DNA from: an uncultured Lachnospiraceae bacterium
GTDB lineage: Bacteria > Bacillota > Clostridia > Lachnospirales > Lachnospiraceae
Direction of reading: 5' to 3'
DNA length: 14,076 bases
Assembly: GCA_946537585.1 (NCBI GenBank)
Contig: CAMNFX010000014.1
Coordinates: 1 to 14,076, forward strand
The stretch's first letter is position 1, and each line of letters begins with the position of its first letter. The notes under the pieces are model-generated. The model did no database searches. It saw nothing but the letters and a program-made list of their open reading frames with translations, and was not told the origin of the DNA. Positions 58 through 14,076 of the stretch are shown piece after piece. Both the position numbers and the translations under genes were made by a program.

Positions 58-87
58 CTGTTTAAGAGCATAGCCGGTTTCTTTGAA

Positions 88-95
88 AAGGGGAG
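88..95 (+). promoter_or_regulatory. Shine-Dalgarno that fixes the binding-protein start
   Basis: AAGGGGAG ends 5 bases before the ATG at 101. The reading frame is also open from a TTG at 83, but that codon lies upstream of this site, so the ATG at 101 is the real start. It also leaves a normal lipoprotein signal peptide. Confidence 0.85.
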
Positions 96-100
96 ATATT

Positions 101-1735
101 ATGAAAAGAAAAATCACGAGTCTTTTGCTGACAAGTGTGTTGGCACTTTCTCTTGCGGCATGCGGCGGCAGCACACAGAACACTGCGCCGGCAGCTACAG
201 CTGCGGCTGCGCCTGAGACTACTGCGGCAGCTGCAGAGCCTGCAAAAACACAGGCTGCAGATACTGCGGCGACTGAAGCGGCAAAAACAGAGGCCGCGAA
301 GGAAGGCACCGGAGAAAAGATCCTTTATACCGCAGCATCCTTTGCCTATCCGAGTCTGGACGTGCATACAGAGTACTACGGGTGGTATACCTCGATCTAC
401 GGCCTTTCAGAGGCACTTTTCAAGATCGGTCCGGACATGGGACTGATCCCTGTACTGGCGGAGTCCATGGAGACAGAGGGCAATGTAGCAACGATAAAGC
501 TCAATGAGGCCGCTGCCTTTTCAAACGGAAATCCTCTGACTGCAGATATGGCTGTCCGAAACCTTCAGCGTCTTGCCGAGGTGAACTCCCGTTTTGCTTT
601 CCTTGGCGATTTTGATTATGAGGTGGTGGATGAGCATACCTTCACCATCGATACCAAAGCGCCCTATCCGACACTGAAGAATGATCTTGCAAGTCCCGAG
701 TGCGGCATGATCGATCTTGATAACACCAAAGATTTCGACCTTGATCCCATCTGCACCGGCCCGTTTGTAATCAGTGATTTCCAGCCCTCCGGGGATGTCA
801 GGGTCGCAAGGAACGAAAACTACTGGGGCGGCGACGTGCTCCTCGATGGTGCTGTGTTCTATTACATGCAGGAGGATCAGCCGAAGCTCATGGCGATGCA
901 GTCGGGAGAGCTCGACTGCTACAACAGCATTGATTCTGCATCCCTGCAGATCTACCAGTCTGATCCTTCCTCCTACAACGTCGTTCAGATCGCCGGCACC
1001 CGCCTGCAGTTCTACATTCTGAACGAAAACCGGCTGGACGACAAGGTGCGTGAGGCCATCAACCTGACCGTAGACAAGGACAGCATTGCGGCTTACCAGG
1101 AGGGCACCGTCTCACCGGCAGTCGGCCCCTTCCTTCCTACTGCGGCATATGGACAGGTAACAGTTCCCGCGGTTGATACGGAAAAGGCAAAGCAGCTTCT
1201 GGAAGAGGACGGCTATACGCTCGGAGCTGACGGCATCTACGAAAAGGACGGCGAAAAGCTTTCTCTCAATATCTGTTATTATGCGGCCCGCAACCTTGAT
1301 GCGATCGCGATCCTGATGCAGGAGCAGCTGAAGGCCATCGGCGTCGACTCCGTACTGACGGTGGAAGAGGATCCGGACGCCACCTATATTTCTACCGGAG
1401 ACTTTGATGTGGCGCTGTACTGCATGATCTCCGACAAGGCCGGCGATCCCCTGTACTTCCTCGATTCGACCCTTGCGGAAGGCTCCTATTATGACTGCGG
1501 CGGCTTCAGCGATGACGAATGCCAGGCTGCGATCGAGCAGCTTCGTACCGAGGCGGATCCTGAAGTTCGTGCAGAGCTTGCCAACAAGGCGGTTCAGATC
1601 GCAATTGATGACAATGCCTTCGGTTATGTCGGGCTCTTCAATCAGACCACGGTATTAAAGCCCGGCGTTCACGGGTTTGCGGAAGACATCCCCTTCGATT
1701 TCTACGGCGTGGATGCCAAAACCGACAAACCGTAA
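101..1735 (+). CDS. ABC importer substrate-binding lipoprotein, family 5 (peptide/nickel type)
   Basis: This is the extracellular substrate-binding component of an oligopeptide/nickel-type importer (SBP_bac_5), lipid-anchored to the outer face of the membrane. The 544-residue product begins with a lipoprotein signal peptide (MKRK, a hydrophobic core, then the lipobox LAAC with Cys21 as the lipidated residue). Residues 22-71 are a low-complexity Ala/Thr/Glu/Lys tether, and the folded domain starts near residue 72. Family motifs are visible, including FSNGNPLTADMAVRNL and CTGPFVISDFQPSG followed by ARNENYWGG. Length is normal for the family. It heads the importer operon, and a stem-loop separates it from the first permease. 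The substrate cannot be assigned: the AVGPFLPTAAYG stretch and the neighbouring short ATPases hint at the nickel/metallophore branch, but di- or oligopeptides remain possible. Confidence 0.93.
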   Translation: MKRKITSLLLTSVLALSLAACGGSTQNTAPAATAAAAPETTAAAAEPAKTQAADTAATEAAKTEAAKEGTGEKILYTAASFAYPSLDVHTEYYGWYTSIYGLSEALFKIGPDMGLIPVLAESMETEGNVATIKLNEAAAFSNGNPLTADMAVRNLQRLAEVNSRFAFLGDFDYEVVDEHTFTIDTKAPYPTLKNDLASPECGMIDLDNTKDFDLDPICTGPFVISDFQPSGDVRVARNENYWGGDVLLDGAVFYYMQEDQPKLMAMQSGELDCYNSIDSASLQIYQSDPSSYNVVQIAGTRLQFYILNENRLDDKVREAINLTVDKDSIAAYQEGTVSPAVGPFLPTAAYGQVTVPAVDTEKAKQLLEEDGYTLGADGIYEKDGEKLSLNICYYAARNLDAIAILMQEQLKAIGVDSVLTVEEDPDATYISTGDFDVALYCMISDKAGDPLYFLDSTLAEGSYYDCGGFSDDECQAAIEQLRTEADPEVRAELANKAVQIAIDDNAFGYVGLFNQTTVLKPGVHGFAEDIPFDFYGVDAKTDKP

Positions 1736-1744
1736 ATCAACAGA

Positions 1745-1800
1745 CGAATGCGGGCTTTGGCAAAGACGCCTCCGGTCTTATAAGCCCCGGCCCGCATTTG
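1745..1800 (+). promoter_or_regulatory. Intercistronic GC-rich stem-loop
   Basis: The 86-base gap between binding protein and permease contains a long inverted repeat. CGAATGCGGGC (1745-1755) pairs with GCCCGCATTTG (1790-1800), 11 base pairs with one G.U. A smaller AAGAC/GTCTT hairpin (1763-1767 with 1775-1779) sits inside. No T-tract follows, so it is not a typical full terminator. In binding-protein operons such structures commonly protect the 3' end of the binding-protein message or cause partial termination, making binding protein exceed permease. That role is inferred here. Confidence 0.65.
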
Positions 1801-1821
1801 CTCACTTAAAATATTGAGACT

Positions 1822-2754
1822 GTGAAAAAGTATGTTTTCAAACGTATAGTGTCCCTTATCCCCCTGCTGCTTGCCTTAAGCTTCTTCAGCTTCCTCCTCC
1901 TGGATATGGCTCCGGGAGATCCCGCGGAAAAAAAGCTGGCAGCGCAGGGAATCGCGGTCAGCAGGGAAGTGATCGAAGCGGAGCGGATCCGGATGGGTCT
2001 TGACCGTCCGTTTTTACTGCGCTATTTATCATGGCTTATCTCAGCACTGCACGGGGATCTGGGGATATCCTACAAGGATAGTCTGCCGGTTGCGGCAAAG
2101 CTGGTCACCGGTCTTAAAATGACCTGCCGGCTGGCAGGCTTCAGCCTGCTGCTGGCGCTCATGATTTCGGTGCCGGTGAGCATCCTCTGTGCTGTGCGGC
2201 AGGGATCGGTATTTGATCATATTGCCCGTATTTTCTCCTTCGCGGGTAATTCGATCCCGAATTTCCTGATCTCCATTCTTCTCATGTACCTTCTCTGCAT
2301 CCGGTTTAAGCTGTTTCCGGTGATCGCCGGAGATTCGCTGACCGGGCTGTTTCTGCCGGTGATCTCGCTTGCCATACCCATGGCAGGCAGATTCATCCGG
2401 CAGTTTCGTGCTGAAATGATCTCACAGCTGGAAATGGACTATGTGACCGGGATCCGTGCCCGCGGCGTGAAAGAAATGGCTGTATTATTCAGCAATGTAT
2501 TCCGCAACTGTCTCGGGCATATGATCACCGTGATCGGTCTGTCCCTTGGAACCCTGATGGGCGGCAGTGTTGTGATCGAAACGATCTTCCGCTGGTCCGG
2601 CATCGGTAAGCTGGTCATGGATTCCATAACAGCCCGTGATTACCCGACGGTACAGGGATTTGTTCTGCTGATGGGGACCCTGTATCTTCTGATCGGTCTG
2701 GTGACGGACCTGATCTTTGTATTCCTGGATCCCAGAGTGGAGCTCAAGGTATGA
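1822..2754 (+). CDS. ABC importer permease 1 (DppB/NikB type)
   Basis: First membrane subunit of the importer, 310 residues, with the usual DppB/OppB/NikB layout. A transmembrane helix lies at about residues 9-29, followed by the extracytoplasmic APGDPAE and RMGLDRPF motifs (near 30-64). Further hydrophobic segments lie near 103-124, 138-160, 173-188, 236-252 and 279-302. The cytoplasmic EAA loop that contacts the ATPase is visible at about 204-232 (MDYVTGIRARGVKEMA onward). The start is a GTG with only a weak Shine-Dalgarno match. No better start exists, because the next Met falls beyond the first helix. Its stop overlaps the next gene's ATG by 4 bases. The weak start together with the stem-loop upstream suggests lower synthesis than the binding protein. 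Confidence 0.93.
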   Translation: MKKYVFKRIVSLIPLLLALSFFSFLLLDMAPGDPAEKKLAAQGIAVSREVIEAERIRMGLDRPFLLRYLSWLISALHGDLGISYKDSLPVAAKLVTGLKMTCRLAGFSLLLALMISVPVSILCAVRQGSVFDHIARIFSFAGNSIPNFLISILLMYLLCIRFKLFPVIAGDSLTGLFLPVISLAIPMAGRFIRQFRAEMISQLEMDYVTGIRARGVKEMAVLFSNVFRNCLGHMITVIGLSLGTLMGGSVVIETIFRWSGIGKLVMDSITARDYPTVQGFVLLMGTLYLLIGLVTDLIFVFLDPRVELKV

Positions 2755-3593
2755 AAACCGTTGTCTCTGTCAAACTGATAAAGCGTCGTGCCCGGATCAA
2801 AGCTGTCATCATAGGCAGCCTGTGCATTCTGCTCATCCTGGCGGCAGTCCTTTCCGACTTCCTGATGCCGCATGATCCCAATGCCACAAGTGCGCTGCTG
2901 ATCCGGAAGCCTCCCTCCGCCATGTATCCCTTCGGCACGGACAGCTTTGGACGATGTGTGTTCTCGCGTGTGCTCGCAGGAGCGAAAACCACGATCTTCG
3001 CGACGACCTTTCTCGTGGCAGTAACCTTTGCGATCGGCACGATCCTGGGAATTATCAGCGGATACTACGGCGGCATTACGGACAGCGTGATCATGAGGAC
3101 TACAGAGCTGTTCCTGGCATTTCCCCAGATGGTCGTGGCGATCGCTGTTGCAGGCATTCTGGGAGGCGGGCTTAGCGCTGCGCTCATTGCATTGGGCGTA
3201 ACTGCCTGGACCGGATATGCCAAGCTTGCGCGCAGCCATACATTAAGCATCCGAAATGAAAACTATATCGCTGCAGCACGTCTCGCAGGCCTCAGCGGCT
3301 GGCAGATCATCCTGCGGCATATACTTCCGAACATCCTGTTCCCCTTAATTACCAATGCGCTGACACAGATCGGCACCACGATGATCGGCATTTCGGGCCT
3401 GTCCTTTCTCGGACTGGGAGTCATACCTCCGCAGGCGGAATGGGGGTCCATGATCAGTGAATCAAGAGCCTATATTCAGCTTGCGCCCTGGTCAGTCCTT
3501 TATCCTGCGGCTGCAACTGTGCTGACGATCATGCTGTTCAACTATCTTGGCGACGCGGTGATGGAGCTTGGGGCAGCGGAAAGGAGAAGCTGA
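2751..3593 (+). CDS. ABC importer permease 2 (DppC/NikC type)
   Basis: Second membrane subunit, 280 residues, pairing with the preceding permease to form the channel. The first helix is at about residues 17-35. The DppC signature FGTDSFGRCVFSRVLAGAKT lies at 61-80, where most relatives read FGTDxxGRDVxSR; here Cys69 replaces the usual Asp. More helices lie near 84-103, 123-150, 197-222 and 246-268. The EAA loop is at about 169-196 (NYIAAARLAGLSGWQIILRH), followed by GLSFLGLGVIPPQAEWG. The ATG overlaps the upstream stop by 4 bases, with TGGAG (2738-2742) as ribosome binding site. The C-terminus after NYLGDAV is slightly unusual (MELGAAERRS, where relatives usually carry RDxLDPR). Confidence 0.94.
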   Translation: MKTVVSVKLIKRRARIKAVIIGSLCILLILAAVLSDFLMPHDPNATSALLIRKPPSAMYPFGTDSFGRCVFSRVLAGAKTTIFATTFLVAVTFAIGTILGIISGYYGGITDSVIMRTTELFLAFPQMVVAIAVAGILGGGLSAALIALGVTAWTGYAKLARSHTLSIRNENYIAAARLAGLSGWQIILRHILPNILFPLITNALTQIGTTMIGISGLSFLGLGVIPPQAEWGSMISESRAYIQLAPWSVLYPAAATVLTIMLFNYLGDAVMELGAAERRS

Positions 3594-4423
3594 TGGCATC
3601 TTTTGATCAGAATGCTGAAAAAAACCTGCAGCTGAGCCATGCCCGCCCCGATTATGTACTTGAAGTGAAGGACCTTTCACTTTCCTATGGTGATGAGGAT
3701 ATCGTAAAACATGTGAATCTTCAGATCCAGCCCGGAGAAGTTCTGTGCATTGCCGGCGAGAGCGGCTGCGGAAAATCTACACTTCTGAAGGCGATCCACG
3801 GCATGGACGCTGTCAATGTGACCGGCGGCTGCGTCTGCTTTGAGGGGAAAAATCTGAAGGGACTGAATAAAAGAGAGCTTCGCTCCCTGATGGGGACCGG
3901 GATCGGTCTGATCCCGCAGAATCCACAGGGGTCGTTCAATCCTTTAAGGACCTTTGAAGTTCAGATGAAGGAAACGATGGCCAGTCACGGGCTGCCCTTT
4001 GATCCGGATGAGATGGTGCAGCTGATGGAATCCATGGGGCTGCCGCAGGGAAAAAAGCTTTTGAAAAGCCGTCCCTTCGAATTGTCCGGAGGTATGAACC
4101 AGAGAGTCGCGATCGTTTTCTCGCTTCTGCTGAAGCCGTCCGTCCTGCTTTGCGATGAGATCACCAGCGCACTGGATGTGATGAGCGGTCAGAATGTGAT
4201 CGATGAGATAGAAAGCTATGCTTCCCATTCCAATGCGGCTATCATCATGGTGACGCATCACCTGGGGATCGCCGACCGGATCGCGGATACTGTAGCAGTA
4301 ATGAATCACGGCGAGATCGTGGAATACGGAAGCAAGGACCAGGTACTTCATGACCCGGCGGACAGTTATACCAGGATGCTTCTGGAAAAGATCCCCAGGA
4401 TCAGAAGGGAGGCTGCTTCATGA
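3593..4423 (+). CDS. ABC importer ATPase 1 (DppD/NikD type)
   Basis: One of two ATPases energising the importer at the inner face of the membrane, 276 residues. All nucleotide-binding motifs are intact: Walker A GESGCGKST (55-63), Q-loop IPQNP, signature LSGGMNQR (from 164), Walker B VLLCDE (184-189), D-loop SALD and switch VTHH. It stops almost directly after DSYTRMLLEKIP. DppD/OppD proteins continue there into a C-terminal oligo_HPY region of roughly 50 or more residues, so the length matches NikD rather than OppD. The start overlaps the preceding stop (TGATG) and is preceded by AAAGGAG at 3580-3586. It is adjacent to and translationally linked with both permeases. Confidence 0.94.
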   Translation: MASFDQNAEKNLQLSHARPDYVLEVKDLSLSYGDEDIVKHVNLQIQPGEVLCIAGESGCGKSTLLKAIHGMDAVNVTGGCVCFEGKNLKGLNKRELRSLMGTGIGLIPQNPQGSFNPLRTFEVQMKETMASHGLPFDPDEMVQLMESMGLPQGKKLLKSRPFELSGGMNQRVAIVFSLLLKPSVLLCDEITSALDVMSGQNVIDEIESYASHSNAAIIMVTHHLGIADRIADTVAVMNHGEIVEYGSKDQVLHDPADSYTRMLLEKIPRIRREAAS

Positions 4424-5268
4424 GTGAGATATATGTCAAAGAAGCGGCTTTCGACTCTGCGCCGATCCTGGAAGCGAAAGACCTGGTACGCACATACCGG
4501 GCGAAAGACCGGGTCATAAAAGCGATCGATCATGTATCCGTATCATTGATGCCCGGCAGGATCCTGGGCATCGTGGGAGAAAGCGGCAGCGGAAAGTCCA
4601 CACTGATCCGTCATATCGCCTGTCTTGAGCAGCCGGACGCAGGCAGGCTCTTTTTCCGGGGTGAGGAATATACCGGCAAAACCGCTGCATACGCCGGACG
4701 GCATATGCAGATGATCTTTCAGGACTCCCAGAGCTCCTTTGATCCGAAGATGCGTTTCGACAAAAGCCTGCGTGAAGCACGGAAAGGACAGAATGATCCG
4801 GAGCTTTTAAAACGCCTTCTGGAGGAAGTGCGGCTGGACGAAAGCTTTCTTAGCCGTTTCCCCCGTTCCCTAAGCGGAGGGCAATGCCAGCGGATGTCGA
4901 TCGTGAGGGCGGTTTACTCGGGGGCCGAGGTGCTGCTCTGCGATGAGGCGACGAGTGCACTGGATGTGGCATCGCAGGCTCTGGTCATCGAGCTGCTGCA
5001 GGAGCTGAAGGAAACGCATGGCATTTCGATGATCTTTGTGTCTCATGATCTCGGGGTCGTGAGCCAGCTTTGCGATGAGATCATGGTCATGAAGAACGGG
5101 CGGTGTGTGGAGCGGGGCAGCAGTGCCGATGTGATCAACCGACCGAAAGACGAATACACCAGGCAGCTTCTGGATGCCGTTATGGAGGTTGGTACTGAAA
5201 CCGGGCTCCATGGTATTAAGGATGAGCCTGCGATATTGCATGAAGTAACAGAAAGGGATCTTTCATGA
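4420..5268 (+). CDS. ABC importer ATPase 2 (DppF/NikE type)
   Basis: Partner ATPase of the importer, 282 residues, predicted to form a heterodimer with the preceding ATPase. It has Walker A GESGSGKST (53-61), Q-loop MIFQDSQSSFDP (relatives usually read QDPxxSLNP), signature LSGGQCQR (from 151), Walker B VLLCDE (171-176), SALD and the switch VSHD. The start (ATGA, 4-base overlap) follows AAGGGAGG at 4405-4412. After the family C-terminus (YTRQLLDAV) it carries a tail of about 30 residues containing HGIKDEPAILHEVTERD. The tail has no recognisable motif, and its last codons double as the ribosome binding region of the methyltransferase gene. Confidence 0.94.
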   Translation: MSEIYVKEAAFDSAPILEAKDLVRTYRAKDRVIKAIDHVSVSLMPGRILGIVGESGSGKSTLIRHIACLEQPDAGRLFFRGEEYTGKTAAYAGRHMQMIFQDSQSSFDPKMRFDKSLREARKGQNDPELLKRLLEEVRLDESFLSRFPRSLSGGQCQRMSIVRAVYSGAEVLLCDEATSALDVASQALVIELLQELKETHGISMIFVSHDLGVVSQLCDEIMVMKNGRCVERGSSADVINRPKDEYTRQLLDAVMEVGTETGLHGIKDEPAILHEVTERDLS

Positions 5269-7080: not shown

Positions 7081-7099
7081 GGGCACTGAGTGCTTTTTT
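7081..7099 (+). terminator. Weak candidate terminator after the HAD gene
   Basis: GCAC (7083-7086) pairs with GTGC (7090-7093) around a TGA loop, extended by two G.U pairs and followed by six T residues (7094-7099). The stem is short, so efficiency is doubtful. Its position between the HAD stop and the next gene's promoter supports a real role. Confidence 0.4.
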
Positions 7100-7170
7100 G
7101 CCATTCAATCACACAGGTGCCGAACCGTTACGTTGCTTTTAAAAAAAACAGAAGTGCAGCTTCTGTCTGG

Positions 7171-7199
7171 TTGCATAAGCGGGATCTTTCAGATACAAT
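7171..7199 (+). promoter_or_regulatory. Candidate promoter with start point at the next ATG
   Basis: TTGCAT (7171-7176) and TACAAT (7194-7199, 5/6 match) are separated by 17 bases. A start point about 7 bases downstream of the -10 falls at about 7206, one base before the ATG at 7207. If used, the transcript would be essentially leaderless, which fits the lack of a Shine-Dalgarno sequence there. Confidence 0.5.
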
Positions 7200-7206
7200 A
7201 TGTCCT

Positions 7207-7743
7207 ATGAAAAAGGACATGCCTTTATTTCTGTTCAGACTGATCCAGTTTACCTGGGGTCTGCCGCAGAGCGCGGCAGGCCTGCTTTTATTTTTGTTCT
7301 TTTATAAGTACAAGCATTTCCCTTACAGGAATGCTATAATCACGGCATGGAGCGATGGGGCCGATTGTGTATCTTTGGGCCCCTTCATTTTTGTTTCAGG
7401 GAGTTTTTTGCCGAAGGATGATCCGTCTTTTGCTGACGCGAAACAGATCATGCTGACAGAGGATGCGGCCGTGCCCGGTGAGCAGGCTGCGATCCGCGGC
7501 AGGATCCCGATGACGCCGGCTCTTCGGCGGATCCTCCGTCATGAGTACGGCCATTCGATTCAGTCCCTGATACTCGGACCGCTTTATCTGTTTGTGGTCG
7601 GACTTCCGTCGATCCTCTGGTGCAGAGTACCTGCGCTCGGAAAAAGCTGGCGGAGCGGCCGGCGGTCCTACTATTCGTTTTTTACCGAACGGAGCGCGGA
7701 CAGGCTGGGCGGCAATGAACGCAGCCGGGATTCCAAAGCCTGA
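7207..7743 (+). CDS. Small membrane protein with gluzincin-like HEYGH and ExxxD motifs
   Basis: Hypothetical protein of 178 residues. A hydrophobic segment lies at about 6-33, a soluble stretch follows, then HEYGH (112-116), immediately a second hydrophobic segment (about 119-138, SLILGPLYLFVVGLPSILW), and TERSADRLGG (160-169). HExxH plus ExxxD (Glu161, Asp165) is the zinc-ligand pattern of M48/M56-type gluzincin peptidases, so a tiny membrane-associated zinc peptidase is possible. I recognise a family of small uncharacterised proteins with HEYGH followed by GPLYL but know no tested function. The start is uncertain. ATG 7207 has no ribosome binding site but sits right at a promoter, while a GTG at 7090 would add 39 unconvincing residues across the terminator. 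The C-terminal tail is short and charged. Confidence 0.65.
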   Translation: MKKDMPLFLFRLIQFTWGLPQSAAGLLLFLFFYKYKHFPYRNAIITAWSDGADCVSLGPFIFVSGSFLPKDDPSFADAKQIMLTEDAAVPGEQAAIRGRIPMTPALRRILRHEYGHSIQSLILGPLYLFVVGLPSILWCRVPALGKSWRSGRRSYYSFFTERSADRLGGNERSRDSKA

Positions 7744-8699: not shown

Positions 8700-9707
8700 A
8701 TGCAGCTTATTTTGCCCGAGAGATACGACCCCAAACTCTCTGTCAGGGAGACCCAGGAAGCGATCAAATATATCAGAGATAAATTTCAGAAGGTCTTTGC
8801 AAGGGAGATGAACTTAGAGCGTATCTCCGCCCCGCTTTTCCTTGAAAAGAGCTCCGGCCTGAATGATGACTTAAACGGCGTGGAACGAAAGGTCAGCTTT
8901 GATCTGAAGGCGGAGCCGGGTGAGGAGATGGAGATCGTCCAGTCTCTGGCAAAGTGGAAGAGAATGGCGCTTGGCCGCTACGGCTTTCTGCCCGGCGAAG
9001 GCCTCTATACCAACATGAACGCGATCCGCAGGGATGAAGAGCTGGATAATCTTCACAGCGTCTATGTAGATCAGTGGGACTGGGAAAAGGTTATTCTGAA
9101 GTCCGAGCGTACTGAAGAGATGCTCCGGAAGACGGTCCGTATGATCTTCAAGATCATCAAACATATGGAGCATGAGGTCTGGTACCGTTTCCCCGAGGCG
9201 GTGTATCACCTTCCCGAGGACATTACCTTTATTGATTCCGAAGAGCTCAGGCTGATGTATCCCTCACTCAGCTCAAAGGAAAGAGAAAACGAGATCTGCA
9301 AAAAGCACGGCTGCGTATTTCTGATGCGCATCGGCGACAAGCTTGGAAACGGGCTGCCGCATGACGGACGCGCACCGGACTATGATGACTGGCAGCTGAA
9401 CGGTGATATCCTCTTCTGGTTTGAGCCGCTTCAGATGGCGCTTGAGATCTCCTCCATGGGCATCCGCGTTTCCGAGGTCAGCCTTCGGACACAGCTGGAG
9501 AAAGCCGGCTGCCCGGAGAGAGCGGAGCTTCCGTTCCATAAGATGATCTTAGAGCAGAAGCTTCCGTATACGATCGGCGGCGGCATCGGTCAGTCCAGGC
9601 TCTGCATGCTTTTACTTGGCCGGGCGCATGTCGGCGAAGTCCAGGCTTCCTACTGGCCGCAGGAAATGCGTGAAAAGTGCGCACAGCACCGCATATTCCT
9701 CCTGTGA
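8700..9707 (+). CDS. asnA: Aspartate-ammonia ligase (asparagine synthetase A)
   Basis: Cytoplasmic enzyme making asparagine from aspartate, ammonia and ATP, with AMP and pyrophosphate as products. It is related to class II aminoacyl-tRNA synthetases. The 335-residue product matches the family length (E. coli AsnA 330). Recognisable blocks include [57 protein letters not shown] followed by [30 protein letters not shown], and the C-terminal [20 protein letters not shown] with VQASYWP, which supplies the class II motif 3 arginine. No truncation is visible. The 110-base gap upstream contains no promoter I would defend. A strong terminator follows. No link to the neighbouring genes is evident. Confidence 0.97.
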
Positions 9708-9746
9708 TTTCTGATCTGCACCCCGTAATAAGATCCGGTATAACAG

Positions 9747-9799
9747 AAAAGCTGCATTTTGTTCCCCTGAAAACAGGGGCTGCAAAACGCAGCTTTTTT
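9747..9799 (+). terminator. Strong intrinsic terminator between convergent genes
   Basis: Three nested stems form one long hairpin. AAAAGCTGC (9747-9755) pairs with GCAGC plus T residues (9789-9797), TTTTG (9757-9761) with CAAAA (9783-9787), and CCCCTG (9764-9769) with CAGGGG (9774-9779) around an AAAA loop. Six T residues (9794-9799) follow on the + strand. On the - strand the hairpin ends in four T residues, so it probably also terminates the convergent DUF4364 gene. Confidence 0.93.
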
Positions 9800-9831
9800 C
9801 ATTTGCAAGGCTCTGCTGTCCGGCGTTTAGC

Positions 9832-10359
9832 TCAGGCGTGCTCTCCGCCCATCAGGCTGAGCATGATATGGGAGTAGAGCTCCTGACTCCGGGTGGACCA
9901 GTTGGCGCACATATCTGCCGCGATCTTCTCATCCGGCACACTGATATCAATGGAAAGCAGGGTGCCGCTGCCTTCCCTGGCAACGCAGTGTACGGTATAG
10001 CTCCCTGCAGAACGAAAATAGTCGGCAGTAGTATCGACCGCAGAACGAATGCTGTATCTGTTCGCTTCAAGATACTGATCCATATCTGCGCATGCGGCAG
10101 CCGAGATCTCTCCGAGAAAGAAGTTCAGTGCTTCTCTTCCGTCGCTGGTGATCTCGTAATGCGTGGAGTTCCCGACTTTATGCGATGTGATAAGACCGGC
10201 CTCGATCAGATCGTTCAGCACGATCTGCAGGGTCATGTAAGTGGTGTACTCTTTATCAAGAAAAAATTCTGAAAGCTGGCTGTTGGTCAGCGGGAAATTG
10301 ACCTTATCAAGCATGTAGAGGGTCATCAGCTTGTATAATGTTTCCGGTTCCTGAAGCAT
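9832..10359 (-). CDS. DUF4364 winged-helix family protein, probable regulator
   Basis: A 175-residue DUF4364 protein, a Clostridia family with an N-terminal winged-helix fold but no tested function that I know of. Residues about 1-75 carry the family block (MLQEPETLYKLMTLYML, DKVNFPLTNSQLSEFFLDKEYT, LNDLIEAGLI) and the wing HKVGNSTHYEITSDGREAL. The C-terminal half is alpha/beta and probably serves dimerisation or sensing. The frame extends to an ATG at 10392, but Met at 10359 has AAAGGA 7 bases upstream and matches the family N-terminus. It is divergent from the DUF5717 gene across 221 bases and convergent with asnA. A palindrome overlaps its -10, consistent with autoregulation. DNA binding is inferred from the fold. 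Confidence 0.88.
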   Translation of the reverse strand: MLQEPETLYKLMTLYMLDKVNFPLTNSQLSEFFLDKEYTTYMTLQIVLNDLIEAGLITSHKVGNSTHYEITSDGREALNFFLGEISAAACADMDQYLEANRYSIRSAVDTTADYFRSAGSYTVHCVAREGSGTLLSIDISVPDEKIAADMCANWSTRSQELYSHIMLSLMGGEHA

Positions 10360-10404
10360 AACTGGATCCTTTCTTTTTCGGAACGAAATCATGTGAACCC
10401 AATG

Positions 10405-10413
10405 ATTATATCA
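10405..10413 (-). promoter_or_regulatory. Extended -10 promoter of the DUF4364 gene
   Basis: Read on the - strand this is TGATATAAT, a perfect TATAAT with the extended -10 TG. No good -35 is seen, which is common for extended -10 promoters. The predicted start point near 10398 gives a leader of about 39 bases to the ATG at 10359. The site overlaps the 11-base palindrome TGATTATATCA (10403-10413). Confidence 0.65.
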
Positions 10414-10451
10414 CATATATTTGTTCAGGTGGAAAGGAATCGGCTGCAGAG

Positions 10452-10463
10452 CTGAACTTTCAG
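10452..10463. promoter_or_regulatory. 12-base palindrome in the divergent intergenic region
   Basis: CTGAACTTTCAG is a CTGAA/TTCAG inverted repeat with a 2-base centre. It lies between the two divergent promoters, and a further TTCAG half-site occurs at 10424-10428. It could be an operator for the adjacent winged-helix protein. Short palindromes also arise by chance. Confidence 0.3.
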
Positions 10464-10507
10464 AAGTGAAGAATTACCGATTATGTATGGAAATCCTCGA
10501 AGGCGTA

Positions 10508-10516
10508 TGCTATCAT
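10508..10516 (+). promoter_or_regulatory. Extended -10 promoter of the DUF5717 gene
   Basis: TGC followed by TATCAT (10511-10516, 5/6 match) forms an extended -10; only a poor TGGAAA lies at the -35 position (10488-10493). The predicted start point near 10523 falls after the GTG at 10521. This rules that codon out and supports the ATG at 10581, leaving a leader of about 58 bases. Confidence 0.5.
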
Positions 10517-10580
10517 AACTGTGTATGGACTCCGGGAACTGATCAGGATACGATATTCCGGAGTTTGTATTGTGGACGCT

Positions 10581-13169
10581 ATGAGAGATAAAATCAGCAG
10601 ACTTTCCAGAGGAATCATAGACATTGAAACTCCGTCAATCCGAGTATTGCCGGAGTCTGTCAGCAACCGCATGATCGCGGGCAGCAGGGATTCCTTTGAG
10701 CTTGAGGTCGTCAGCACCAACGGGTTCAGCATTCGGGGTGCTGTTTTTTCAGATGATCCGAGAGTGAGCTCTGAGACCCGCACCTTCACAGGACGCAGGG
10801 TCCATATTACTGTGCAGCTGAATGCGGCAGGTCTCCGGCCCGGAGAGCATCTGACGGCCAATGTCTGTCTTGTGACCAATGCGGGGGAGATCCGGATCCC
10901 CTGTGATATTCTGTGCGAAGAAAAAAGTCCGGAAGCCGGAGGAGCCGCAGCCCTGAGCGCGGCAAAGGAAACGGAGCTGTCCGGATCCGGAAACTATGTT
11001 GAAGATCCTCTGATCTACGGGCCGTATGACAGTACGGTACCGGAGGAGATTTCCGGTACAGGCGGCACGGAGTCTGCCGGGAACACGGAAATGGAAGAGC
11101 AGCCGGAGGAGGATCGCTTTTTCTGGAGGGAGCCTTCCAAAGGCACCGGCAGCTTCTCAGACGGCACCCCGGAGGAAGAACAGAAAAAGCTTTTGTGTAC
11201 GGTTTTTCCGGAGGATATGCCGTTATTCGAAGGCGTCCTGGCTGCTTTGATCCGTGCCAAGGATGAGTCACCGGAGGCATTTTCTTTTTACAGGGAGGCC
11301 ATCCGCAGAAACCTGAGCGTCACAAGGCTGTATGAAAGCTATATCCATGCCTATCCTGCGGACTCGGATGAAATGATGCCGCGGGAGGTTTTGCTGTACT
11401 ATTCCTATGACCGGGATCCTGAGGCCATGATCCGCGAAAAGCTCTATAAGAATGTTCTGCTCTATGTCGACAGAGATTCTGAACTGTACGGGATCTATGA
11501 GCCGCGGATCAGCCATTTTGCCATGAACTGCGTACTTGAGCGCAGGATCAGCGAAAACCTCAGGGTGATCTATGACAGGATGATCTATCCGGGAATGATC
11601 GACCGCCGTGCGGCAGAGTGCCTTCCCGACATACTGAAATGCCGCCGGATCCTTGTTAAATCACCGGATGTAAAGTATGTCACCGTACGTTATCCGGAGC
11701 TTGGCATTTCGATGCGGGCGGAAGTAAAGGGCAGAGCTGCCTATGTGCCCGTATATTTCCAGAATGCCGCAATCGTTCCGGACAGCGGAGACGCGGATAT
11801 TTCCGATGAAGCCCTGTTCGATAGGCCGGACCTTCTGAGACGCTGCTTTGATATTTTCCCGGAGCACCGGATGCTTCTTTTGTCCGCGGTCAGGGAAATT
11901 GCTGACCGGGGGACTGCCGGTGAGGATGAGATATCCGTATGCATGAAGGCGCTCAGCGTGCTTAAGCTTAAGCCTGCGTTCCGCTCAAAGCTGATCCGGG
12001 CGCTCTGCCATACGGAAGGAGAGCCCCGGTGGATCAATTCTCTTTCGAAAGAGGACTATACCCCCGAGATCGCAGCGGATATCTGCCGCGTGCTCTTAAA
12101 ATACGGACATGCTCCGGAGGCATGGGAGATCATGAAGAGCTTTGGCTGCTGGGAGAAGGACAGCTCCCTGACAGCGGACCTTCTCGACGCCCTGATCCGT
12201 TCCGGCAGCATTCCGATGGCGGACGATCAGCCGGAACCTGTTTTTGTCAGTATCAGCAAAAGTGTTTTTGATAAGGATCCGTCTGCCGCACCGGATTCCG
12301 TATGCGAGCTTTTAGGCTATGCCTACGAAGGACCGTCCGGAGAAATGTACCGGGTGATGAGCGAGCTTCTGAACCGGAAGCGAAAGCTGTATGATCTTCC
12401 GGAGAATGTGCTGGCATATCTGCTCTTTACGGACAGCAGAGAGCATATCGACGAGACCTTCCTTACTTATATCGATCACTGCGCCTACACGGATATGATG
12501 GTGAGAGCCTACCTGATCCGCCGCAGCGCAGACTACTTCCTGGATGAGGAAGAGGTGATCGGTTCCATACTGTTTGAAGCTCTGTTCAGCTATCTGAAGG
12601 CAGTGGATGATCCTTTAAAGCAGCCGGAGCTGATGCTTCTGGCGCTGACGAAATACTGGTCTGAAAAGGACACCCTGACGGCGGAGGAGACGGAATTCTG
12701 CCAGCTGCTGACGGATAAGCTGATCGCGGACGGACTGGTCTTCCGTTACACCAAGGTCCTGCGCAAGAAGATCCGGGTCCCGCGGGAGATCTGTGACCGC
12801 TTTTACGTGGAATACCATGGGGACAGGCAGACTGCGCCGCGCCTTATGGTGCGGATCCGGCCGGATGAAAAGGAATTTCATCCGGAAGACATGAAACGTG
12901 TCTACCGGAACATTTATGTGATGTCCACGCTGCTGTTCATGGGAGATGAGATGCACTATCTGATCTACCATGTTCCCTCGGCCACGCAGCCGTCCGAGGA
13001 AGGCGTGATCAAGGTTACAAAGTTCCACCGTCAGAAGGACGATCGCTTTGAATGCCTCAACTATATGCTGAAGGCGATCGCGGACAGGGACAGGGAGCTG
13101 CTGCGTGAAAACATGCTGAAGTATGTGGAAACGCGGGAAGTCATGAAGGAACTATATAAGTTGAAATAA
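10581..13169 (+). CDS. Large DUF5717 family protein (Ig-like head, helical body)
   Basis: An 862-residue protein I recognise as DUF5717, typical of Lachnospiraceae and without a known function. Residues about 1-112 look like a beta-sandwich: MRDKISRLSRGIIDIETPSI, GRRVHITVQLNAAGLRPGEH, then TNAGEIRIPCDI, a pattern like Ig-type domains in which an SNGGE-IPV strand ends the fold. Residues about 113-205 are low-complexity, rich in Gly, Glu, Ser and Pro. The rest is long and mainly helical, TPR-like in character without a clean repeat, and ends in LKYVETREVMKELYKLK. There is no signal peptide or membrane segment, so it is cytoplasmic. The start at 10581 fits the family and the promoter; the Shine-Dalgarno is weak (GTGGA). 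The DUF5716 gene follows after 140 bases. A scaffold role is inference. Confidence 0.85.
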   Translation: MRDKISRLSRGIIDIETPSIRVLPESVSNRMIAGSRDSFELEVVSTNGFSIRGAVFSDDPRVSSETRTFTGRRVHITVQLNAAGLRPGEHLTANVCLVTNAGEIRIPCDILCEEKSPEAGGAAALSAAKETELSGSGNYVEDPLIYGPYDSTVPEEISGTGGTESAGNTEMEEQPEEDRFFWREPSKGTGSFSDGTPEEEQKKLLCTVFPEDMPLFEGVLAALIRAKDESPEAFSFYREAIRRNLSVTRLYESYIHAYPADSDEMMPREVLLYYSYDRDPEAMIREKLYKNVLLYVDRDSELYGIYEPRISHFAMNCVLERRISENLRVIYDRMIYPGMIDRRAAECLPDILKCRRILVKSPDVKYVTVRYPELGISMRAEVKGRAAYVPVYFQNAAIVPDSGDADISDEALFDRPDLLRRCFDIFPEHRMLLLSAVREIADRGTAGEDEISVCMKALSVLKLKPAFRSKLIRALCHTEGEPRWINSLSKEDYTPEIAADICRVLLKYGHAPEAWEIMKSFGCWEKDSSLTADLLDALIRSGSIPMADDQPEPVFVSISKSVFDKDPSAAPDSVCELLGYAYEGPSGEMYRVMSELLNRKRKLYDLPENVLAYLLFTDSREHIDETFLTYIDHCAYTDMMVRAYLIRRSADYFLDEEEVIGSILFEALFSYLKAVDDPLKQPELMLLALTKYWSEKDTLTAEETEFCQLLTDKLIADGLVFRYTKVLRKKIRVPREICDRFYVEYHGDRQTAPRLMVRIRPDEKEFHPEDMKRVYRNIYVMSTLLFMGDEMHYLIYHVPSATQPSEEGVIKVTKFHRQKDDRFECLNYMLKAIADRDRELLRENMLKYVETREVMKELYKLK

Positions 13170-13186
13170 AGCGTAACCATTCAGCC

Positions 13187-13203
13187 TCTGCCTGATCGGC
13201 AGA
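13187..13203 (+). other. Small hairpin in the DUF5717-DUF5716 gap
   Basis: TCTGCC and GGCAGA pair around a 5-base loop, 18 bases after the DUF5717 stop. No T-tract follows, so it is not a terminator. The rest of this 140-base gap shows no promoter I can support, and the two genes are probably cotranscribed. Confidence 0.4.
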
Positions 13204-13309
13204 CGGCCCGTGCATGAGCAGAATACTGATGACATACGGATGATCGGTCACTTTTTGCGAATGCAGGACAGCCGGGTGCAGAATGGCAGCAATAACCGGG
13301 GATAGCGAT

Positions 13310-14076
13310 ATGCCACTGACCATCGGCATCGACCTGTGCGATGACTATATAACTGCATATGGAAGCGAGGACAAGATACTGCTGCATGTTCCCGCCGTGG
13401 TCTGCCGGGAAAAGAAGGATGACCTCTGGTATATCGGTGAGACTGCTTACCGTATGGCACTTTCCGGCAAGGGCGTGCTCACGGACAAGCTCTTAAGCCT
13501 TCTCAGAAAGGGAGGCACCTCGACGATCGCCCGCAGATCCTACAGCGCCGAGCAGCTTATTTCCAAAATGCTGGCAAGCGTTTTGTGGCAGATCCTCAAC
13601 GGACGTGATCTGAGTATTGTCGACCGTCTCGTGATCGCCCTTCATAAACCGGAAAAAGATATCATGGATGCTGTCTTAAATGCGGCGGAAAGCTCCGGGG
13701 TGGAGCGCTCCCGGATCAGGATCATCAGTCATGCGGAGGCATTCGTATACTATACGCTCGCGCAGGAAAAAGAATTATACAGCAATATGGTCGGACTCTT
13801 TGATCTTTCGGACGAGTCGCTTTCCTATTACCGGCTGAAGGTCATGCGCGGCATCAGCAGAAACAGTGTGGTGGTAGAAGGGACAGACCTCGAGGAGGCC
13901 TTCCATATCGGGATCCTGAAAAATGAATCCGGATCCGAGCTGGGAGACCGCATCATGACAGACGCCGCCAGAAAATGCCTCGGAAATGATATCTTTTCCT
14001 CCGTTTTCCTGACGGGACGCGGCTTTGAACGGACTGACTGGGCAAAGGGTTTTATCAGCTTTATCTGCAAGCGGCG
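13310..14076 (+). CDS. DUF5716 family protein, actin/Hsp70-fold type (3' end outside window)
   Basis: An open frame runs from ATG 13310 off the window edge: 255 codons with no stop. I recognise DUF5716, an uncharacterised family found beside DUF5717. The order of motifs suggests an actin/Hsp70-type (ASKHA) nucleotide-binding fold. LTIGIDLCDDYITAYG (3-18) is at the phosphate-1 position, GLFDLSDESLSYYRL (162-176) is at phosphate-2, and VFLTGRGFERTDWAKG (232-247) is near the adenosine site. YIGETAYRMAL and ISHAEAFVYY also match family blocks. The usual DLGTT and DxGGGT glycines and threonines are missing, so ATP hydrolysis may be lost or altered. GGGGA at 13298-13302 supports this start; an in-frame ATG at 13283 would add nine residues. 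Confidence 0.8.
   Translation, partial: MPLTIGIDLCDDYITAYGSEDKILLHVPAVVCREKKDDLWYIGETAYRMALSGKGVLTDKLLSLLRKGGTSTIARRSYSAEQLISKMLASVLWQILNGRDLSIVDRLVIALHKPEKDIMDAVLNAAESSGVERSRIRIISHAEAFVYYTLAQEKELYSNMVGLFDLSDESLSYYRLKVMRGISRNSVVVEGTDLEEAFHIGILKNESGSELGDRIMTDAARKCLGNDIFSSVFLTGRGFERTDWAKGFISFICKR

Follow-up and report, generated by a model that had tools for sequence, protein, structure and literature searches.

The window analysed in this study is a stretch of 14,076 nt that makes up one entire contig of an uncultured Lachnospiraceae bacterium, from a genome that is 59% complete. Near its 3' end it encodes a DUF5717 protein and the beginning of a DUF5716 protein. Comparison with related genomes suggests, with moderate confidence, that these two proteins and a tetratricopeptide repeat (TPR)-like protein encoded behind them represent the core kept from a larger gene set that encodes four Hsp70-type proteins, and that DUF5716 is now an ATP-independent clamp or subunit. 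DUF5716 is derived from Hsp70: it has the fold of the nucleotide-binding domain (NBD) and the beta part of the substrate-binding domain (SBD-beta), without the lid, subdomain IIB or the canonical ATP motifs. As judged from their sequences, the three genes of the window's family correspond to genes of the larger set. This family, designated f1, was taken as probably Lachnospiraceae in the narrow sense; Anaeropeptidivorans, the source of the example of the larger set below, is placed in Lachnospiraceae by the NCBI taxonomy, yet belongs to another family (f12) in the order sample. The proteins are members by score of the Pfam families DUF5717 (PF18983/PF18984) and DUF5716_C (PF18980), and the product of the neighbouring gene is a member of DUF4364 (PF14277); Pfam assigns no function to these families, and literature searches found no paper on the DUF5717/DUF5716 families or the operon.

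The DUF5717-DUF5716 locus

The features of the locus, in window positions, are the following.

9832-10392, minus strand: DUF4364 protein of 186 amino acids (aa), winged-helix-like (Pfam PF14277, E 2.9e-51)
10393-10580, no strand: divergent intergenic region (from the sequence, with the DUF5717 start set at ATG 10581)
10581-13169, plus strand: DUF5717 protein of 862 aa, ASH/MSP-like head and alpha-solenoid scaffold (Pfam PF18984 and PF18983; AlphaFold2 model)
10626-10925, plus strand: ASH/MSP/PapD-like immunoglobulin (Ig) domain, N-terminal in DUF5717, model residues 19-118
11169-12791, plus strand: alpha-solenoid of DUF5717, model residues 200-740, including a beta insert (357-414; DSSP, AlphaFold2 model)
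12801-13013, plus strand: beta domain, C-terminal in DUF5717, model residues 744-814 (DSSP, AlphaFold2 model)
13310-14076, plus strand: 5' part of the DUF5716 gene, product Hsp70 NBD-like (Pfam DUF5716_C, PF18980)
13325-13345, plus strand: degenerate phosphate-1 loop, GIDLCDD versus GIDLGTT in Hsp70 (alignment)
13799-13816, plus strand: degenerate phosphate-2 loop, FDLSDE versus DLGGGT in Hsp70 (alignment)
13880-13927, plus strand: approximate place, inferred from motif spacing, where the Hsp70 subdomain IIB insertion would be expected and is absent
14009-14026, plus strand: degenerate adenosine motif, LTGRGF versus VGGST in Hsp70 (alignment)

DUF5717 exceeded the Pfam gathering cut-off with both family models (N model, E 2.7e-83; C model, E 3.2e-51). 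Its start is probably ATG 10581, because homologues begin there, which gives 862 aa up to the stop at 13167-13169. The AlphaFold2 model (mean predicted local distance difference test score 83.3) showed an Ig-type head followed by a helical body, which bears out the initial annotation, made from the sequence alone, and supports its description of DUF5717 as a large scaffold. Structure comparison of the model identified the head as an ASH/MSP-like Ig domain. It differs from the known domains of this type (HYDIN, CEP192, MSP) in being only 4-14% identical to them among the matches listed and in standing on a bacterial alpha-solenoid. The solenoid itself gave no specific fold match in the structure comparison, in which the VIA rows cover the head only. 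The fetched f1 forms of DUF5717 have a median length of 1195 aa, and the window protein aligns to positions 1-118 and 525-1184 of the f1 profile; the middle has therefore been lost.

DUF5716 lies directly 3' of DUF5717 on the same strand (DUF5716_C, E 1.8e-36, above the gathering cut-off), as the initial annotation had it. A start at 13310 is more likely than one at 13283, since an MPLTIGIDL-like sequence opens most homologues. The contig end truncates the protein: the window holds residues 1-264, the first 64% of 415 aa, and the SBD-beta part lies beyond. Over these 264 residues an identity of 100% to the full-length protein P0001 (415 aa) was reported, with one mismatch visible near the end.

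Twenty f1 loci were fetched, and in these DUF5717 (20 loci), DUF5716 (19 by clustering) and a protein of approximately 277 aa (19) form one unit. The DUF5716 of L099 was missed by clustering, which picked another frame, and was placed there by Pfam; the approximately 277-aa protein is missing from L097 at a contig edge. In the one copy tested, this third protein was without a Pfam match at E up to 0.01; hhalign aligned it with the larger set's TPR protein (P 99.8, E 1.1e-29). In the window's genus the TPR-like gene directly follows DUF5716 in nine of ten fetched loci, other frames having been picked in the tenth (L195); in the window it would fall past the contig end. A valyl-tRNA synthetase gene follows it in the one window-genus locus tested. 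A further gene of approximately 395 aa (C3), coding for a coiled-coil protein with two transmembrane-like stretches, was seen after the TPR-like gene in 14 of the 20 f1 loci (L083-L102); one copy tested had no Pfam match.

DUF5716 is Hsp70-derived and lacks the ATP motifs

The structural model of DUF5716 showed, at high confidence, a two-lobed actin-like NBD fold of the Hsp70 type, so that the predicted actin fold was found and the suggestion of a chaperone-like machine pointed in the right direction. The model includes an SBD-beta, its alignment with DnaK reaching model residue 415 (DnaK residue 503), and the structural matches listed are of the Hsp70 type, SBD-beta included. The alpha-helical lid is absent, the last element of the 415-residue chain being a beta strand (408-414).

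The nucleotide binding that had been expected of this fold fared worse. Alignment detected the phosphate-1, phosphate-2 and adenosine motifs in none of 20 f1 DUF5716 proteins and in none of 48 sequences of the window's clade. Outside f1, GTT and GGGT are lost in 20 of 20 DUF5716 proteins and the adenosine GG is retained in 17. The paralogues of the larger set, described below, look ATP-competent: GTT and GGGT are present in 15 of 15 Hsp70b, and GTTN and GGGT in 18 of 18 Hsp70a and 14 of 14 VWA-Hsp70 proteins. The distance from the phosphate-2 to the adenosine motif has a median of 72 residues (60-78) in 20 f1 DUF5716 proteins, compared with 142 (117-152) in 20 from outside f1 and 146 (144-146) in 15 Hsp70b, a spacing which indicates that subdomain IIB is missing from the f1 form. 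As two motifs were lost outside f1, and all of them together with IIB within f1, the decay came in steps.

A larger Hsp70 gene set outside f1

In Anaeropeptidivorans aminofermentans (L073), genes on one strand encode a DUF5717 N part (400 aa), a DUF5717 main part (896 aa), Hsp70a (558 aa), a GrpE-domain fusion (622 aa), DUF5716 (528 aa), Hsp70b (547 aa), an Hsp70 with a C-terminal VWA domain (691 aa) and a TPR protein (387 aa). The VWA-Hsp70 of L073 was 100% identical to A. aminofermentans P0119 over the 208 residues compared. The order Hsp70a-GrpE-DUF5716-Hsp70b-VWA-Hsp70 is kept in 19 of 20 fetched non-f1 loci, a figure that is not an order-wide rate because the loci were drawn almost wholly from genomes with DUF5717 and DUF5716 on one contig. 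The twentieth locus (L074, genome G012) holds the DUF5717 parts and DUF5716 only. For L070 and L072 the order was completed from the VWA-Hsp70 and Hsp70a searches of the order sample. Extra frames are inserted in L070 and L071, and the N part or the TPR gene was undetected in some loci, for example L082. The N and main parts correspond to positions 24-304 and 315-1196 of f1 DUF5717; besides f1, where a single protein contains both, the fusion is seen in L065 and L072. A 385-aa gene upstream of DUF5717 in G089 was considered as a split N part and dropped, since its start resembles that of an S-adenosylmethionine synthetase.

Hsp70a, Hsp70b and VWA-Hsp70 also lack the C-terminal lid, the Pfam match ending at profile positions 477-496 of 599 in the three A. 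aminofermentans proteins; in one of them the VWA domain follows the truncated match. The GrpE fusion (for example L073, 7100-8968, minus strand) can be aligned across families with a mean column identity of 32%. Its N part of approximately 460 aa had no Pfam match and, against solved structures, gave a best match of 4.7e-4 to a glutamine transporter protein over residues 68-112, with no single passing stretch. No J domain occurs among the Pfam matches listed for the A. aminofermentans genes (E up to 1; of the 28 families for the TPR gene, the best 25), and this role may therefore fall to general J proteins or to a component not recognised as such. A contig profile scan with the VWA-Hsp70 alignment yielded one locus of the sought type, L103 (Defluviitaleaceae, 79%); the other 79 of the 80 loci kept are only 33-38% identical, and one of the two patterns is a general Hsp70 motif.

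Distribution and loss of the genes

The order sample comprised 196 genomes, 35 in f1 and 161 outside. DUF5717 matches were obtained in 94 and DUF5716_C matches in 92 (86 above the cut-off). All 35 f1 genomes carry both genes on one contig and one strand, with 267-847 bases between the matched parts, and this adjacency is far beyond chance. Order-wide, the neighbourhood proposed in the initial annotation does not extend so far: the pair is directly adjacent in 36 of the 94 DUF5717 genomes (the 35 of f1 and G012), and elsewhere operon genes lie between the two or the genes are dispersed. Among the 59 of 161 non-f1 genomes with DUF5717, 40 have DUF5716 on the same contig and always on the same strand, at 782 bases in G012, 43 kb in G065 and 2.9-10.2 kb in the other 38; 16 have the pair on different contigs and three have no DUF5716_C match. 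DUF5717 was also detected in 13 of 293 genomes of a class sample, all of them f1.

Three genes of the larger set were then searched for at thresholds of E<=1e-150 (VWA-Hsp70), E<=1e-130 (Hsp70a) and E<=1e-25 (GrpE fusion) and found in 59, 58 and 58 genomes of the order sample, respectively; several GrpE-fusion matches, among them those of G002, G041 and G049, span the GrpE end only. All three occur in 58 of the 59 non-f1 DUF5717 genomes, the exception being G012, and at these thresholds none occurs in the 35 f1 genomes, where weaker Hsp70 candidates are present, as expected of DnaK. G161 has no DUF5717 match and carries VWA-Hsp70 and DUF5716 near a contig end. VWA-Hsp70 was found in none of 299 genomes of a phylum sample, which holds no positive control.

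A quick maximum-likelihood tree included 19 DUF5716 proteins from f1 loci and P0001. These 20 form one clade (Shimodaira-Hasegawa-like approximate likelihood ratio test, SH-aLRT, 99), with the operon-bearing form of G002 as its sister (97), and the window protein groups with that of G157 (99). Loss in f1 is a simpler reading than gain elsewhere. In the sister locus itself (L063, G002) the operon is present, the VWA-Hsp70 is in two frames and the GrpE gene is short (279 aa), which reflects either decay in progress or an assembly error.

A candidate membrane partner

A coiled-coil gene other than C3 adjoins the DUF5717 N part in 16 of 30 non-f1 loci, of which 8 (two partial) come from the first 20 and 8 from a second set of 10 (L066, L067, L069, L070, L071, L073, L077, L079, L205, L208, L211, L213, L215, L217, L221 and L224). 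It accompanies DUF5717 outside f1 also where the set is dispersed; the arrangements seen in such genomes include one cluster of the coiled-coil gene, the N part and the main part, with Hsp70a in another place, alone or with GrpE-DUF5716. By simple hydropathy, all 14 full-length copies have at least one strongly hydrophobic stretch and 13 have at least two, and such stretches were found in none of 15 N parts, 17 GrpE fusions and 12 TPR proteins and in one of 14 main parts. The L073 copy gave a weak NCBIfam match to ZorA (4.5e-5, in the coiled part), three other copies gave only weak Pfam matches such as Nsp1_C, and hhalign detected no link to C3 (P 1.9 and 1.5). As both gene sets are accompanied by coiled-coil genes with transmembrane-like stretches, a membrane tether of the assembly appears plausible inside and outside f1.

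Weighing the explanations

Several observations weigh against a retained, ATP-independent core. The DUF5717 gene truly lies apart from those of Hsp70a and DUF5716 in eight of ten checked genomes (G102, G022, G065, G132, G095, G088, G034 and G121), and gene order therefore does not require a fixed stoichiometric pair. The ten were G065 and nine of the 16 genomes with the pair on different contigs; in the remaining two (G003 and G014) the set is contiguous up to the contig end. One of the 25 genomes of the window's genus, G774 (94% complete), lacks a DUF5717 match; the other 24 carry the gene. G012 lacks Hsp70a, the GrpE fusion and VWA-Hsp70, yet its DUF5716 keeps an IIB-sized segment, so that the losses were not strictly coupled; perhaps G012 represents a second, independent reduction of the set. 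The tree has long branches and no bootstrap and is provisional, and the docked state of the modelled DUF5716 may be a preference of AlphaFold. By sequence, the f1 DUF5716 profile alone misses Hsp70 in the solved-structure search, and the hhalign comparison gives P 16; homology is concluded from the fold and from the DUF5716 relatives outside f1. Lastly, the window's clade keeps three charged residues, D17 (48 of 48), K69 (45 of 48) and D174 (45 of 48), and some nucleotide or metal binding is therefore possible. These residues may correspond to D8, K70 and D194 of DnaK; K69 is two columns off register from the Hsp70 lysine, and across f1 D17 is kept in 17 of 20 and D174 in 13 of 20 sequences.

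The dispersed genes leave our assessment unchanged, because co-occurrence carries the argument. Assembly breaks, considered as the cause of the pairs on different contigs, do not account for the eight genomes with the genes truly apart. In family f4 (for example L205-L222), the chaperone genes are scattered in eight of ten genomes checked with all partners retained, a break-up of the operon without gene loss.

The same charged residues, together with the high-confidence Hsp70 fold and the retained SBD-beta, would fit a DUF5716 that has remained an active ATPase, namely a minimal Hsp70 that cycles with neither GrpE nor lid and has DUF5717 for its scaffold and co-chaperone. This is considered unlikely, given the absence of GTT, GGGT and the adenosine GG from all f1 and clade sequences, the loss of the exchange-factor fusion and the lack of IIB, the subdomain that folds over the nucleotide in Hsp70.

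It is quite unlikely that DUF5716 is an actin-like polymerising element of the cytoskeleton or of division, cross-linked by DUF5717, the filament version of the cell-envelope or division role that had been suggested. Such a role could draw on the actin superfamily fold, on a weak MreB match of the truncated protein (13.9 bits against a cut-off of 27, E 0.025) and on the nearby coiled-coil membrane genes, of the two-transmembrane kind in 14 of 20 f1 loci and of the other kind in 16 of 30 non-f1 genomes. The listed structural matches, however, are Hsp70-type with SBD-beta, a domain that to our knowledge actin-like filament proteins lack; nucleotide motifs are absent, and the next gene in the window-genus locus tested is that of valyl-tRNA synthetase.

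Control of the pair by DUF4364 through the shared intergenic region, giving a regulated three-part module in this lineage, was judged quite doubtful. The initial annotation had proposed such a module at 10360-14076; the divergent DUF4364 gene was confirmed by Pfam, but that interval contains only its first approximately 30 bases. DUF4364 is the divergent neighbour in 17 of the 24 DUF5717 genomes of the window's genus, and in two g7 genomes the two matches are 4,038 bases apart, with an intervening open reading frame in the one locus fetched (L094). A distance of at most 5 kb from the DUF5717 match was seen in only 3 of 35 f1 genomes (24 have DUF4364 on another contig, five farther away and three not at all) and in none of the 41 non-f1 genomes, out of 59, whose DUF4364 match was among those listed. 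DUF4364 is present in 189 of the 196 order genomes, some of them without DUF5717. Promoter-like matches do not exceed chance, with two in 9600-14076, one of them at 10488-10516 (plus strand), compared with 3.5 in shuffled sequences. DUF4364 was therefore rejected as a member of the module, being near-universal in the order and rarely close to DUF5717.

Relation to known systems

DUF5716 differs from DnaK and other canonical Hsp70 proteins (PF00012) in having no lid, IIB, phosphate or adenosine motifs and in having its own scaffold gene. Another atypical Hsp70 is Ssz1, found in the ribosome-associated complex of yeast. This protein is eukaryotic and has the J-protein Zuo1 for a partner, and DUF5716 is unlike it in lacking IIB; for the A. 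aminofermentans genes no J domain is listed. The system is Hsp70-derived, and its nearest published counterparts are the GAP1-N2 neighbourhoods, which are centred on GTPases and carry an HSP70, GrpE, a second, domain-deficient HSP70 and an Ig-like protein with TPR (Kaur et al. 2020, PMC7159879). Compared with these neighbourhoods, the set analysed here has no listed GTPase (one locus), four Hsp70-type proteins, a VWA domain fused to Hsp70 and a GrpE domain fused to a part of approximately 460 aa without Pfam match. These shared components (HSP70, GrpE, a domain-deficient HSP70, TPR and Ig-like repeats; PMC7159879) could suggest a conflict system for defence, which is very improbable, as no GTPase family is listed for nine genes of the A. 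aminofermentans locus (E up to 1; of the 28 families for the TPR gene, the best 25), the best PADLOC match is 2.1e-8 (Hsp70b to PDC-M61B), and all 35 f1 genomes carry the pair, unlike patchy defence systems, with a patchier occurrence outside (59 of 161). The Pfam matches listed for these nine genes include no GAP1 family.

Other features of the window

Rfam and tRNA scans of the whole window gave no matches. Positions 83-5268 (plus strand) have the look of a peptide/nickel-type ABC transporter operon with a binding lipoprotein, two permeases and two ATPases (translations read by eye). At 7090-7743 (plus strand) a hydrophobic 217-aa protein, without Pfam match at E up to 0.01, carries an HEYGHS motif that we assume to be zinc-protease-like; its homologue precedes a pseudouridine-synthase-like gene in the same-genus locus L204.

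Discussion

The larger set resembles a dedicated Hsp70 machine, made up of ATP-competent Hsp70s, an exchange-factor domain, a pseudo-Hsp70, a TPR protein and a big scaffold. In f1 the ATP-using half is absent, leaving the scaffold, the pseudo-Hsp70 and the TPR protein. DUF5716 would then lack an ATP-driven cycle of binding and release and stay in a fixed, domain-docked state, serving either as a clamp that binds proteins or peptides constitutively or as a structural subunit, comparable to the atypical Hsp70 Ssz1. The DUF5717 solenoid may hold DUF5716 and the ASH/MSP-like head another partner, and the TPR-like protein would be the third subunit; the whole could act as a holdase or adaptor that needs no ATP, and a coiled-coil membrane protein may tether it to the membrane. 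More tentatively, an order-specific machine with lidless Hsp70s, an ASH-headed solenoid, a VWA domain replacing one lid, a GrpE-fused exchange factor and a coiled-coil membrane anchor may have become, in f1, an ATP-independent trio whose only Hsp70 of its own is a pseudoenzyme.

A core pair of hitherto unknown function, carried by all 35 f1 genomes, thus gains folds, an ancestry and a chemistry open to testing. Within the order, the states before and after reduction can be compared, the full four-Hsp70 set in, for example, the cultured A. aminofermentans and the reduced form in f1, which allows one to ask what an Hsp70 retains after losing ATP, exchange factor and lid.

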